This document shows, one piece after another, positions 16,088-41,053 of a DNA stretch of 64,000 bases. The notes beneath the pieces were generated by a model that was not told where the DNA came from, searched no databases, and saw only the letters and a list, made by a program, of their open reading frames with translations. This DNA is from Mesorhizobium escarrei. GTDB taxonomy: Bacteria > Pseudomonadota > Alphaproteobacteria > Rhizobiales > Rhizobiaceae. The stretch lies in the NCBI RefSeq assembly GCF_935825525.1, contig NZ_CAKXZT010000119.1, positions 115,364-179,363 of the forward strand. Reading direction: 5' to 3'. The position numbers and the translations under genes are program-made. Each line of letters begins with the position of its first letter. Position 1 is the stretch's first letter.

Positions 16088-16975
16088 ATGGGGCGCGCAA
16101 CACTGATCGGCTTCTCGGCGGTCGCCATGTGGGCGCTGCTGGCGCTGCTTACGGACGCTTCCGGCGCGGTGCCGCCATTCCTGCTTTCGGCGATCACCTT
16201 CACGATTGGCACCGGCGTCGGGCTCGTCGCGCGGCTGTTCACGCCGGCGGCCGCCAGCCGGCAGAAGATACCGCCGCAAGTATGGGTGATCGGCATTGCC
16301 GGCCTGTTCGGCTATCACTTCTTCTATTTCACCGCGCTGCGCAATGCGCCGGCGGTGGAGGCGAGCCTCATCGCCTATCTGTGGCCGCTGCTGATCGTGC
16401 TCGGATCGGCGCTGATGCCGGGCGAGCGGCTGGCGTGGAACCATGTCGTCGGCGCACTGCTCGGCCTTGCCGGCACTTTCCTGATCGTCACCAAGGGCGG
16501 CGGGCTTGCCTTCGACGCACGCTATGCCTTCGGCTATGCGATGGCCGGCTTCTGCGCCGTGCTGTGGGCGTCCTATTCGCTGTTGTCGCGCCGCTTTCCG
16601 TCGGTGCCGACCAGCATTGTCACCTGGTTCTGTGCGGCCACGGCAGCGCTTTCGCTTATCTGCCATCTCATGCTGGAAGAGACGGTGCTGCCTGTCGGCG
16701 CCGGCCAGTGGCTGGCCGTGCTCGGCCTCGGCCTGATGCCGGTGGGCGCCGCCTTCTACGCCTGGGATATCGGCGTCAAGCGCGGCAACATCCAGGTGCT
16801 GGGCGCGGCAAGCTATGCCGCGCCGCTGCTGTCGACGCTGGTGCTGATATCGGCCGGTTTCGCCGAGCCGTCCCTGCGCATCCTCGCCGCCTGCGTGCTG
16901 ATCACCGGCGGGGCAGCGCTTGCGGCGAAATCGCTGTTATTGCGCAAGCAGGCTGCGAGCGAGGCCGGGGCGTGA
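16088..16975 (+). CDS. EamA-family drug/metabolite exporter (YddG-like)
   Basis: 295 residues with about ten membrane helices and two EamA repeats. The first ends near GGGLAFDARYAFG, the second starts GYAMAGFCAVLWASYSLLSRRF. The features FGYHFFYFTALRNAPAVEASLIAYLWPLLIVL place it near YddG-type aromatic amino acid exporters, but the substrate is inferred only. ATG 16088 is chosen because an upstream in-frame start would prefix 45 charged residues. The stop overlaps the start of the YhhN gene (TGATG). Confidence 0.88.
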   Translation: MGRATLIGFSAVAMWALLALLTDASGAVPPFLLSAITFTIGTGVGLVARLFTPAAASRQKIPPQVWVIGIAGLFGYHFFYFTALRNAPAVEASLIAYLWPLLIVLGSALMPGERLAWNHVVGALLGLAGTFLIVTKGGGLAFDARYAFGYAMAGFCAVLWASYSLLSRRFPSVPTSIVTWFCAATAALSLICHLMLEETVLPVGAGQWLAVLGLGLMPVGAAFYAWDIGVKRGNIQVLGAASYAAPLLSTLVLISAGFAEPSLRILAACVLITGGAALAAKSLLLRKQAASEAGA

Positions 16976-17643
16976 TGCCGTTCCCCGGCGGCATCGATGC
17001 CAACGCCAACGCGACGCTGCTGTTTTCGCTGGCGGCGGCGGTGATCTACGCCTTCACCATCGACATGCCGCCGAAGCTTGCGCGTTCTGCGATCAAGGCA
17101 CTGGCCGTGGCAATGCTTGCCGTGCTGGCCTCGCTGCAGGGTGGTCCGTGGCTGCTTGTCGCGGCACTGGCGTTGAGCGCCATCGGCGATGCGTTGCTGT
17201 CACGCGACGGTGAAAAGGCCTTTGTCGGCGGGCTGGCCAGTTTTCTCGTGGCGCATGGGCTTTACATCGCGCTGTTCCTGCGCTCCAGCGATGGGGTCGG
17301 GCTGTTTTTGGCCGAGCCGTGGCGGGCGGCGATTGCCGGGGCAATGGCCGTGTTCGCGCTCACCATGCTTTTTGCGCTCTGGCGTCGCGTCGGCCCCGCC
17401 CTGCGCCTTCCGATCAGCGTCTATATCGCGACAATTTTTGCCATGGGCATTTCGGCCCTCACTCTGAGCAATTTCTGGGTCGTCGGCGGCGCCGTGCTGT
17501 TCATGGCGTCCGACGGGCTGCTCGCCTCGGAAAAGTTCCTGCTGACCGCCATCTCGCCGCACCGTACCTGGACGCGCCACGCGGTCTGGGTGCTGTATTA
17601 TGCCGCCCAGCTGGGGATCACGATGGGTTTCCTGCTGGGTTAG
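16975..17643 (+). CDS. YhhN/TMEM86 family membrane protein
   Basis: 222 residues with about eight hydrophobic helices and the family patterns ALALSAIGDALLSRDGEKAFVGGLASFLVAHGLYI and MASDGLLASEKFL. Animal TMEM86 proteins are lysoplasmalogenases; bacterial YhhN roles are not settled. It overlaps the exporter stop, so the two are co-translated. ATG 16975 is used; the GTG one codon earlier is also possible. Its TAG stop is the first three bases of a 172-base palindromic repeat. Confidence 0.85.
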   Translation: MPFPGGIDANANATLLFSLAAAVIYAFTIDMPPKLARSAIKALAVAMLAVLASLQGGPWLLVAALALSAIGDALLSRDGEKAFVGGLASFLVAHGLYIALFLRSSDGVGLFLAEPWRAAIAGAMAVFALTMLFALWRRVGPALRLPISVYIATIFAMGISALTLSNFWVVGGAVLFMASDGLLASEKFLLTAISPHRTWTRHAVWVLYYAAQLGITMGFLLG

Positions 17644-17812
17644 GTATGTCGATAATCAGGTGATGCCGGCCTGCAAAACGGCGGTTTCCTGCGCTTCCGG
17701 TACTCACGTACCCAAACGTACGCTCCGTTCCGGTTCTCGGAATCCACCTGTTTGGTCGCTTCGCGCCCGTCTTCGACGCCGGCTCGGCCTGACCTGAATC
17801 TCAACATACCTA
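17641..17812. repeat. 172-base palindromic repeat, family P1, copy 1
   Basis: Outer arms TAGGTATGT (17641-17649) and ACATACCTA (17804-17812) are perfect. Inside follow further paired stretches (TCAGGT/ACCTGA, GCCGGC/GCCGGC) around a core with ACGTACCCAAACGTACGCTCC. A second copy lies at 40778-40918 with the same order of blocks. The left arm begins on the TAG stop of the yhhN gene. The 195 bases to the cupin gene hold nothing else. Confidence 0.85.
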
Positions 17813-17838
17813 GCCCGGATATGTGTGAGATATCCCGA

Positions 17839-18267
17839 CTAGGGCGTTCCCGGCTGCCAGCCCGGCTCGGCCAGCTCGAAGGCGGCGAAATCGAAGCCCG
17901 GCGCCACGGTGCAGCCGACCAGCGTCCACTCGCCTAGGCTGCGTGCCGATTGCCACCAGCCTGCCGGCACAACGATCTGCGGCCGCTCGCCCGCCGCCAA
18001 TGCCGTGCCGAGCACCTGCTCGATCACCGGCCCGTTTTCCCGATGCATCGACAGTGCCAACGGGGCACCAGCATAGAAATGCCAGACCTCGGCGGTGTCC
18101 TTGACGCGGTGCCAGGCCGATACTTGCTCCTGCTCCAAAAGGAAGTAGATCGCGGACGAATGGCCGCGCGCGCCTTCCGCGCCATCGCGGAAGGTTTCGG
18201 CATACCAGCCGCCTTCCGGATGCGGTTTCAGGCCGAGCGTCGCGATGATTTCGGCGGAACTGGTCAT
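17839..18267 (-). CDS. cupin domain protein (DUF985)
   Basis: 142 residues from ATG 18267. The cupin_5/DUF985 pattern is clear: LGLKPHPEGGWYAETFRD, SSAIYFLLEQEQVSAWHRVK, AEVWHFYAGAPL, VVPAGWWQSARS and GCTVAPGFDFAAFELA. It is a small beta-barrel, probably metal-binding; the reaction is unknown. An upstream frame to 18375 is rejected because it overlaps gloB heavily. It lies 16 bases after the gloB stop on the same strand and so is likely co-transcribed. Confidence 0.9.
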   Translation of the reverse strand: MTSSAEIIATLGLKPHPEGGWYAETFRDGAEGARGHSSAIYFLLEQEQVSAWHRVKDTAEVWHFYAGAPLALSMHRENGPVIEQVLGTALAAGERPQIVVPAGWWQSARSLGEWTLVGCTVAPGFDFAAFELAEPGWQPGTP

Positions 18268-18283
18268 GAGCGCACCACAGGGC

Positions 18284-19051
18284 TCAGAAGTTGTCCTTGC
18301 GCTTGCGAATTTCGGCGAACACTTCGGCGTCGGAGGCGTTCTCCATGCCGAGATGCTTGCGGATTGCCGGATCATGCCAGCGCAGGAACGGATTGGTCGA
18401 AAGTTCCTCGCCGATCGTGGTCGGCAGCGTCGGCTTGCTGTCGGCGCGCAACGCCTCGATTTTTGCAGCGCGCTCCTTCAACGCCGAATTGGTCGGGTCG
18501 ACGGTCAGCGCGAAGCGGACGTTGGAAAGCGTGTATTCATGGCCACAATAGACGACCGTCTCGGCCGGAAGTGCCGCGAGCTTCTTCAACGAATCGTACA
18601 TCACCGGCGGCTTGCACTCGAACAGCCGGCCGCAGCCGAGCGCAAACAGCGTGTCGGCGGTGAACGCCACTTTCGACGCCGGCAGATGATAGGAGACATG
18701 GCCCGCCGTGTGGCCGGGCGTGGCGATCACGTCGATCCTCTCCTCGCCGAGGTGGATGACCGAACCCTGCTCGACGGTTTCGTCGATGCCGGGAATTTTT
18801 GCGTGTTCCGCTTCCGGTCCGACGATGCGCAGCTTGAACCGCTCCTTCAACGCCAGATTGGCCTCGACATGGTCGACATGGTGATGCGTGGTCAGGATCA
18901 TCGTCGGCGTCCAGCCGGTACGCTCGATCGCGGCCAGGATCGGGGCCTCCTCGGGCGCGTCGATGATCGCGGTCTGGCCGCTTTTCGGGTCATGCACCAG
19001 CACGCCGAAATTGTCGCTGCGGCACATGAATTGTTCGATTTCAACCGGCAT
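18284..19051 (-). CDS. gloB: hydroxyacylglutathione hydrolase (glyoxalase II)
   Basis: 255 residues. The metallo-beta-lactamase motif THHHVDH is at 55-61, followed by TPGHTAGH, the DTLFALGCGRLFE metal-bridging Asp and GHEYTLSN, all typical of GloB. It hydrolyses S-lactoylglutathione to lactate and glutathione in methylglyoxal detoxification. It is divergent from the methyltransferase gene; the 300 bases between hold four hairpins. Confidence 0.96.
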   Translation of the reverse strand: MPVEIEQFMCRSDNFGVLVHDPKSGQTAIIDAPEEAPILAAIERTGWTPTMILTTHHHVDHVEANLALKERFKLRIVGPEAEHAKIPGIDETVEQGSVIHLGEERIDVIATPGHTAGHVSYHLPASKVAFTADTLFALGCGRLFECKPPVMYDSLKKLAALPAETVVYCGHEYTLSNVRFALTVDPTNSALKERAAKIEALRADSKPTLPTTIGEELSTNPFLRWHDPAIRKHLGMENASDAEVFAEIRKRKDNF

Positions 19052-40235: not shown

Positions 40236-40778
40236 ATGCCAATCGTGCGTGGCAAGGATATCGAGGTTCTGTTTTCGGCGTCGGCGATTGCCCGCCGCAA
40301 TCTGGAGCTCGCCAAGGAGATCGCCGGGCACGATTATCAGGACCTTCTGGTGATTTCGGTGCTAAAGGGGTCGTTCATCTTCGCCGCCGATCTCATCCGC
40401 GCCATGCACGATGTCGGCCTGTCGCCGGAGGTCGAGTTCATCTTCATCTCCAGCTACGGCGCCGGCACCACCAGCGGCGAGGTGAGGGTGCTGCGCGACA
40501 TTGACAATGAGGTCGCCGGCCGCGACGTGCTGTTGATCGACGACATCCTCGAATCCGGCAAGACGCTGTCCTTCACCCGCGAACTGATGCTGTCGCGCGG
40601 CGCCAAAAGCTGTTCCATCGCTGTGCTGCTCGACAAGCGCATGCGCCGCCAGACCGCGCTCAACGCCGATTATGTCGGCTTCGACTGCCCCGACTATTTC
40701 GTCGTCGGCTACGGCATGGATGTCGCCCACGCCTTTCGTGAACTGCCGTTTGTCGGCGTCGTCAAGGGCGACGCCTAG
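40236..40778 (+). CDS. hpt: hypoxanthine phosphoribosyltransferase
   Basis: 180 residues. The PRPP motif VLLIDDILESGKTLSF and VISVLKGSFIFAADLIRAM are diagnostic; LLDKRMRRQTALNADYVGFDCPDYFVVGYGMD completes the purine site. It salvages hypoxanthine or guanine to IMP/GMP. The TAG stop is followed directly by a P1 repeat. Confidence 0.93.
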   Translation: MPIVRGKDIEVLFSASAIARRNLELAKEIAGHDYQDLLVISVLKGSFIFAADLIRAMHDVGLSPEVEFIFISSYGAGTTSGEVRVLRDIDNEVAGRDVLLIDDILESGKTLSFTRELMLSRGAKSCSIAVLLDKRMRRQTALNADYVGFDCPDYFVVGYGMDVAHAFRELPFVGVVKGDA

Positions 40779-40918
40779 GGTGTGCTGATATTCAGGTGAG
40801 GCCGGCCTGCAAACAGCGGCTTCCTGCGCTTCGGTGCTAACGTACCCAAAAGTACGCTCCGCTCCGGGTTCTCGGAAGCCGCTGTTTTCGACTCGGCCTG
40901 ACCTGAATCTCAACACCC
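40778..40918. repeat. palindromic repeat family P1, copy 2
   Basis: Outer arms GGGTGT and ACACCC (40778-40783, 40913-40918). TTCAGGTGAGGCCGGCCTGC on the left and CGGCCTGACCTGAATCTC on the right, AGCGGCTTCC against GGAAGCCGCT, and a core with CGTACCCAAAAGTACGCTCC match copy 1 at 17641. The stem starts on the last base of the hpt TAG stop. The rest of the 275 bases to the regulator gene shows no other gene. Confidence 0.85.
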
Positions 40919-41053
40919 CCCGGTGCTCAATCCGGAAGGTGCGATGGGCTTGTAATCGCTGTGTATAACGCTTCGATGCGGCGTGCTCCGGATTTTCTCC
41001 CTGATCGGTTGCGGTTCAGGAAAAGTCAACTTTTCCCGGCGAAACTTTCCGCT

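Follow-up and report, generated by a model that had tools for sequence, protein, structure and literature searches.

A dispersed, mobile palindromic hairpin of alphaproteobacteria lies mostly at stop codons and keeps its structure on one strand

The window, meaning here the whole 64,000-nucleotide stretch of Mesorhizobium escarrei DNA that was analyzed, contains two palindromic repeats that are copies of one family (Table 1). The first lies between a YhhN-family gene and a convergent cupin gene, and the second follows a phosphoribosyltransferase gene. A preliminary description had placed a 172-base palindrome at the first site with a related copy near 40778-40918, and both were located and proved to be related. 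Copy 1 spans 172 bases, begins TAGGTATGT and finishes ACATACCTA. Blocks had been listed that the two copies would share in the same order: CGGCCTGACCTGAATCTC is indeed identical in both, whereas copy 1 reads AATCAGGTGA rather than TTCAGGTGA, and copy 2 holds CGTACCCAAAAGTACGCTCC where (A)CGTACG had been given. Terminal inverted repeats, by which MITEs are recognized, are present in the window copies and across the family, with inverted arms of 32 nt in copy 1 (81%; 17637-17668 / 17785-17816) and of 47 nt in copy 2 (81%; 40778-40824 / 40874-40920), the latter including GGGTGT at 40778 and ACACCC at 40913-40918. Between copy 1 and the cupin gene, at 17809-17843, lies a second small inverted repeat (CCTAGCCCGGATAT / ATATCCCGACTAGG), in which CTAGCCC, read as its reverse complement, matches the seven bases that end the upstream gene (GGGTTAG) at all but one position.

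Table 1 Features of the two hairpin copies and their neighboring genes in the window.
Feature	Coordinates	Strand	Basis or remark
Copy 1, entire hairpin element	17641..17812	- (strand with the family-preserved fold)	Fold, inverted arms, family alignment
Conserved tip of copy 1 (GCGCTTCCGG..CGGTTCTCG)	17691..17739	+ (core-forward orientation)	Tip alignment
Extra segment of the right arm, about 30 nt (GGTCGCTTCGCGCCC..)	17754..17783 (limits approximate)	.	Copy 1 and some others; absent from copy 2
TAG stop of the upstream ORF, common to the left end of copy 1	17641..17643	+	Sequence, ORFs
ORF upstream of copy 1, 504 aa, YhhN family	16129..17643	+	
Convergent ORF downstream of copy 1, 178 aa, Cupin_5 (DUF985)	17839..18375	-	
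Copy 2, entire hairpin element, including the shared stop TAG (40776-40778)	40776..40920	-	Fold, inverted arms
Conserved tip of copy 2	40826..40874	+	Tip alignment
ORF upstream of copy 2, 180 aa, phosphoribosyltransferase (Pribosyltran)	40236..40778	+	

Both copies fold far more stably as RNA than dinucleotide shuffles of the same sequence (copy 1, 17636-17817, z = -6.1; copy 2, 40770-40925, z = -9.1; 0 of 200 shuffles equal in each case). Rfam covariance models gave no match up to E = 1 over 17400-18000 of the window, and across six family loci they produced two cspA matches, both away from the element. An overlap of mir-1272 with the element at locus L315 (E 0.034, 30.7 bits against a gathering score of 80) was taken as chance.

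The existence of further copies had been set beforehand as a test of the palindrome, and the M. escarrei genome carries about 40 copies or more. Here the 172-base query yielded 53 matches at E <= 0.001 (40 scored candidates out of 82), a single copy sometimes being split into two matches. The core model R1, for which 21 of 30 fetched loci were used, yielded 42 matches at E <= 0.01 (150 scored candidates out of 4054). Counting this genome, R1 matches occur in 36 of 37 genomes of the genus (the sole miss being G024); they also occur in 2 of 24 genomes from other families of the order and, at E <= 1e-4 and again including our own, in at least 23 of 289 genomes of the class, a lower bound obtained with 18 candidates scored per genome under stricter filters. 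The exact tip pattern was found in at least 119 stretches from several alphaproteobacterial orders, many of them from Mesorhizobium, the names being those of record titles. Further titles were Phyllobacterium, Agrobacterium, Rhizobium, Ochrobactrum, Brucella tritici, Devosia, Bosea, Stappia, Sphingosinicella, Sphingobium, Sphingopyxis, Asticcacaulis, Inquilinus, and a Methylobacterium MAG. Plasmids carry the element in 18 records, 10 from Sphingobium and 3 from Phyllobacterium; phages gave no match to it.

A full copy forms one long imperfect hairpin, in which a near-invariant tip of about 48 nt, reading GCGCTTCCGGTRCTCACGKAC..GTMCGCTSCGYKCCGGTTCTCG, sits on arms that vary between copies yet stay paired. 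We extracted 138 distinct copies from loci L001-L090 and L147-L226, minus L031, and since all were found by the tip, its conservation among them is partly by construction. Type-A anchors (GATATTCAGGTGA on the left, CCTGACCTGAATCTC on the right) are present in 87 of these copies, the window copies being of this type, and absent from the other 51, many of which are type B with ends GAGAC.GTTT.GAAA. Other palindromic repeats (TACAGCGCCGCGCGCC.., AGCGCATGACCCC..GCGCTCTAAT, and GGCCTTCGCCGGCC..) were seen inserted at recurrent points within the hairpin tip at loci L013, L026, L028, L029, L093, L229, L233, L239, and L261.

The element has a preferred place relative to genes. In 70 of 87 type-A copies (64 when only the longest ORF is counted), the element edge, 7-10 nt beyond the left anchor, coincides with the end of an ORF of 90 codons or more, against 33 of 2741 random positions and 15 of 87 in the mirror test on the right side. 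Among 36 copies from other taxa, 24 lie within 6 nt of the end of an ORF of at least 60 codons (control, 43/673). Over 113 independent loci, the left gene runs on the plus strand in 93, on the minus strand in 8, and is unclear in 12, and for the right gene the corresponding numbers are 36, 49, and 28. At locus 2 the same TAG is present in empty orthologs, so the element did not bring the stop codon. In most copies the right arm also pairs with the final two bases of the stop codon; at offset -11, with the arm read as its reverse complement, TAA goes with TAA or CAA in 14 of 16 copies, TGA with.GA in 7 of 8, and TAG with.AG in 19 of 26. One and the same stop can hold different subtypes in different species, as in L063 (type A) versus L216 (type B) and L197 (type A) versus L080/L220 (type B), and at the L025 stop the arm type shared by G000 and G017 differs from that shared by G016 and G020. 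The right flank of the Asticcacaulis copy (L333) reads GACTCGC, an inverted copy of the upstream gene-end bases, as foldback copying could leave.

Comparison of orthologous places indicates that the copies are mobile. Copy 1 is absent from all 20 orthologous places read in relatives; in the two genomes G020 and G016 (94% and 92% identical) the sequence ends in GGTTAG and continues without the element. The site of copy 2 is filled in G016, with another repeat in the tip, is empty in G020 and G017, and holds a tip-less relic at the same stop in G003. Ten further copies of our genome, checked in G020, G016, and G017, were in some cases shared and in others empty. In G206, 5-bp duplications flank the ends GAGRCC.TTTCAAAA, 9 of 11 being identical and 2 having one mismatch when both flanks are compared by eye. 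TNA duplications occur in type-B copies of the genus and of a handful of other taxa; the 58 rows compared, at least 7 of them type-A rows assigned wrongly, contain 14 direct and 1 inverted 3-mers. The left and right stop-codon triplets of type A are mostly inverted and not direct, and we therefore claim no target-site duplication for this type. Duplications of 5 or 3 bp fit double-strand transposition of the DDE type and not HUH-type insertion.

Among 11 inspected of 28 type-B-end loci in our genome, no autonomous partner was found; these loci hold short elements, truncated copies, or solo ends. In G206, another alphaproteobacterial genome, at least 18 copies (L432-L449) have an identical model score, with several at contig ends and with A+T-rich flanks; they suggest a recent burst, and the transposase responsible may still be present there. 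NZ_VCCH02000140.1 (L383), titled Mycobacterium sp. KBS0706, carries a type-B element flanked by a TGA duplication; the organism label of this record may be wrong. That the copies are REP/REPIN sequences moved by a RAYT (Y1) transposase is barely credible and was rejected: they are palindromic and extragenic, and TAG stands at the foot of many, but 31 of 37 genus genomes lack a Y1_Tnp match at E <= 1e-5, including G036 and G034, with 62 and 61 element matches. The only Y1 match in our own genome, at L031 (G000:C68:18030-18215), is a fragment corresponding to the second half of the Y1 (IS200-like) profile, 62 of 121 positions. The element is also much longer than REP/REPIN sequences, which it resembles in that both are extragenic palindromes.

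Alignment of the family bears out the earlier proposal that the outer arms differ from copy to copy but pair through compensatory change. We aligned 72 of the 87 type-A copies; the 15 dropped were 7 with frame slips or different arms together with copies outside 128-150 nt. Their consensus is one single hairpin, which on the minus strand has 48 pairs, 26 of them changed on both sides, with 97.6% of cells paired, while slid structures pair just 31-40% of cells. Covariation reached 0.241 versus 0.139 in shuffles, and 0 of 500 shuffles, which ignore kinship, attained any measure, so the stem covariation by which the description could be checked was found. Even within the tip, pair 18-45 is G-C in 14 and A-U in 7 of 21 sequences, and pair 26-37 is U-A in 14, G-C in 5, and broken in 2.

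The structure is preserved unequally on the two strands, the minus strand being the better kept. The RNAalifold consensus of the 72 rows reaches -71.3 kcal/mol on the minus strand versus -31.4 on the plus, and the minus-strand structure contains 280 G.U versus 21 A.C cells, a count that leans to the minus strand because the structure itself was folded there. The anchor-based arm count and the fold-free arm alignment use no fold and hence carry no such lean. Without folding, the eight outermost positions of the arms were counted in 80 copies (7 of the 87 with anchors having been dropped for frame slips or different arms); in the plus reading these 640 cells comprise 533 Watson-Crick, 85 A.C, 8 G.U, and 14 other, against shuffled-copy averages of 426, 127, 52, and 35 for the same cells; an A.C read on the plus strand is a G.U wobble on the minus strand. 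Single copies likewise fold better on the minus strand (84/86 type-A and 50/51 other copies), with a mean advantage of 12.6 kcal/mol for type A and 14.1 for the others, compared with 5.1 kcal/mol in 117 mononucleotide shuffles of type-A copies. Among the 138 Mesorhizobium copies, 403 A.C stand against 70 G.U on the plus strand and the minus strand folds better in 133, and the 36 copies titled outside Mesorhizobium, of which one (L335) may sit on a same-genus contig, give 131 A.C versus 14 G.U in fold-free arms, with the minus strand better in all 36. This asymmetry argues against a plus-strand bidirectional terminator or an mRNA-stabilizing 3' hairpin of the upstream gene, an improbable reading that would suit a location directly after the stop in one orientation: the plus strand is the poorly preserved one, T-rich runs just beyond the arms occur in 1 of 87 copies on the plus strand and 0 of 87 on the minus, and 17500-17950, around copy 1, holds no terminator. 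The same interval holds no sigma-70 promoter-like site, which counts against an antisense RNA.

Divergence at shared sites shows the same direction. Where different species carry copies at one stop codon, some of which may be independent insertions there, 31 positions vary, with 19 showing a minus-strand wobble, 0 a plus-strand wobble, 10 two different Watson-Crick pairs, and 7 another mismatch, the last class swollen by one slipped row; a smaller set of this kind has 24 variable positions, with counts of 16, 0, 9, and 3, respectively. Taking the consensus as the ancestral state, paired minus-strand sites with an unchanged partner carry A>G in 65/1136 cells (5.7%) and C>T in 77/1851 (4.2%), as against T>C in 11/1087 (1.0%) and G>A in 8/1768 (0.5%). 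Unpaired minus-strand columns, whose consensus is purine-rich (2584 of 3631 cells), are skewed the opposite way, with C>T in 9/575 (1.6%) and A>G in 10/1293 (0.8%), and G>A in 68/1291 (5.3%) and T>C in 40/472 (8.5%). The reversal at unpaired sites points to selection on a single strand and not to mutation alone, and together with the covariation it supports the selection on structure that had been suggested from the two window copies. Strand-biased mutation as the sole source of the wobble asymmetry, which would draw on the fact that wobbles on one strand always come from C>T or A>G there, is accordingly very improbable, and we rejected it on this opposite skew, with the consensus again standing for the ancestor.

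Template-switch repair of quasi-palindromes could also keep the arms of a functionless MITE remnant complementary. The usual match of the right arm to the final two bases of the stop codon, which at locus 2, at least, belong to the host, is as expected of such foldback copying, and we regard a neutral remnant of this kind as unlikely, though distinctly less so than the terminator or mutational readings. Repair of this sort should leave A.C and G.T mismatches alike, whereas the observed ratio is 85:8; unpaired minus-strand A and C change least, and the tips are near-identical in several orders, although these tips were found by the tip itself.

The wobble asymmetry was also split by the context of the right gene, giving 16:1 at 14 tandem loci, 36:5 at 37 convergent loci, and 18:2 at 16 unclear ones. 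As it is as strong at tandem as at convergent loci, it holds whether or not the minus strand is the 3' UTR of the neighbor, and this weakens an RNA role in place. The minus strand might instead fold as single-stranded DNA during mobilization or replication and be selected for mobility, not as RNA. G.T pairs in DNA hairpins are tolerated more than A.C. This reading, which would accommodate the independence from neighboring gene orientation, the fixed orientation relative to the upstream gene, and the mobility of the copies, is on balance unlikely, slightly less so than the neutral remnant. The 5-bp duplications in G206 and the 3-bp duplications of type B, fitting DDE-type and not HUH-type insertion, weigh against it, as do the asymmetric changes that separate same-stop copies across species, apparently arising after insertion, with the reservation that some of these may be independent insertions.

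Beyond what the preliminary description contained, then, the element is mobile, adjoins stop codons, and has the minus strand as its preserved strand; it is a dispersed, covarying, strand-asymmetric, and oriented hairpin located mostly at stop codons. Our preferred reading, to which we assign a probability of about one half, is a MITE-like non-autonomous mobile repeat that carries a strand-specific structured module, probably an RNA antisense to the upstream gene. Copies would be moved by transposases acting in trans. In the genus they mostly lie immediately behind the upstream stop, with a constant orientation, and the preserved structure is that of the strand antisense to the upstream gene. 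Convergent or antisense transcription could then yield a structured antisense-strand RNA hairpin whose tip may bind a protein or RNA, and the hairpin might mark or insulate the 3' end of the gene. Close behind comes a single-stranded DNA role for this minus strand. As a more tentative extension of the RNA reading, different MITEs with differing ends and duplications might share one conserved RNA tip, dock at stops with one orientation, and leave there an antisense-strand hairpin that insulates or marks gene ends across the class, kept by selection. Palindromes between genes tend to be classed as inert MITEs; in this family the arms show strand-specific compensatory change, and most insertions lie at the very end of a gene. 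If the minus-strand hairpin is RNA, a large unannotated structured-RNA family would be distributed by mobile DNA, and if it is single-stranded DNA, the element would point to a new route by which DNA reaches gene ends. With so many natural variants, the choice between RNA and DNA is directly testable.

Among described repeats, the nearest kinds appear to be CIR, RIME, and Bru-RS, with CIR seemingly the closest and set apart by description. The Rhizobium-specific intergenic mosaic elements (RIME) are rhizobial intergenic palindromic mosaic repeats, and their likeness to the present element, drawn by description, is that of rhizobial intergenic palindromes. A title on them stands in the references of PMC1273637. 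Integron attC sites likewise stand behind stop codons with a constant orientation, work through a single folded strand, and have the ends RYYYAAC / GTTRRRY; the consensus outer ends of our element, GGTGTGTTGA / TCAACACACC, do not match these R-box ends. Bacterial MITEs such as Correia/NEMIS, ERIC, RUP, and RPE are given in the excerpted text of PMC2229807 as long stem-loops of about 100-200 bp, most with target-site duplications; our element differs in that its outer arms vary widely yet pair, in lying mostly at stops, and in its strand-specific structure. Bru-RS1 and Bru-RS2 are palindromic repeats of Brucella, according to a title in the references of PMC2267715, and are likened by description to the element, being palindromic and from the same bacterial order, with the element tip present in the Brucella tritici record. 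No published account of this element was recognized in the literature searched, part of it as excerpts, and the tip strings are absent from the papers that were text-searched; the CIR lead arose from searches for CIR and stem-loops. The CcrM-associated intergenic repeats (CIR) occur in several alphaproteobacteria, including Caulobacter and Brucella, and are described in the same excerpted text as intergenic stable stem-loops of about 110 bp with GANTC sites and an unknown mobility mechanism, built of two hairpin arms and a linker with GANTC at the terminal loop (PMC2229807). As far as that excerpt goes, our element differs in being one hairpin instead of two arms with a linker, and in a tip consensus without the GANTC that CIR has at the terminal loop. 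The likeness lies in GANTC itself, which is present in 84 of 87 type-A copies and, among the copies from other taxa, in the arms of 19 of 36, versus 11.7 in shuffles.
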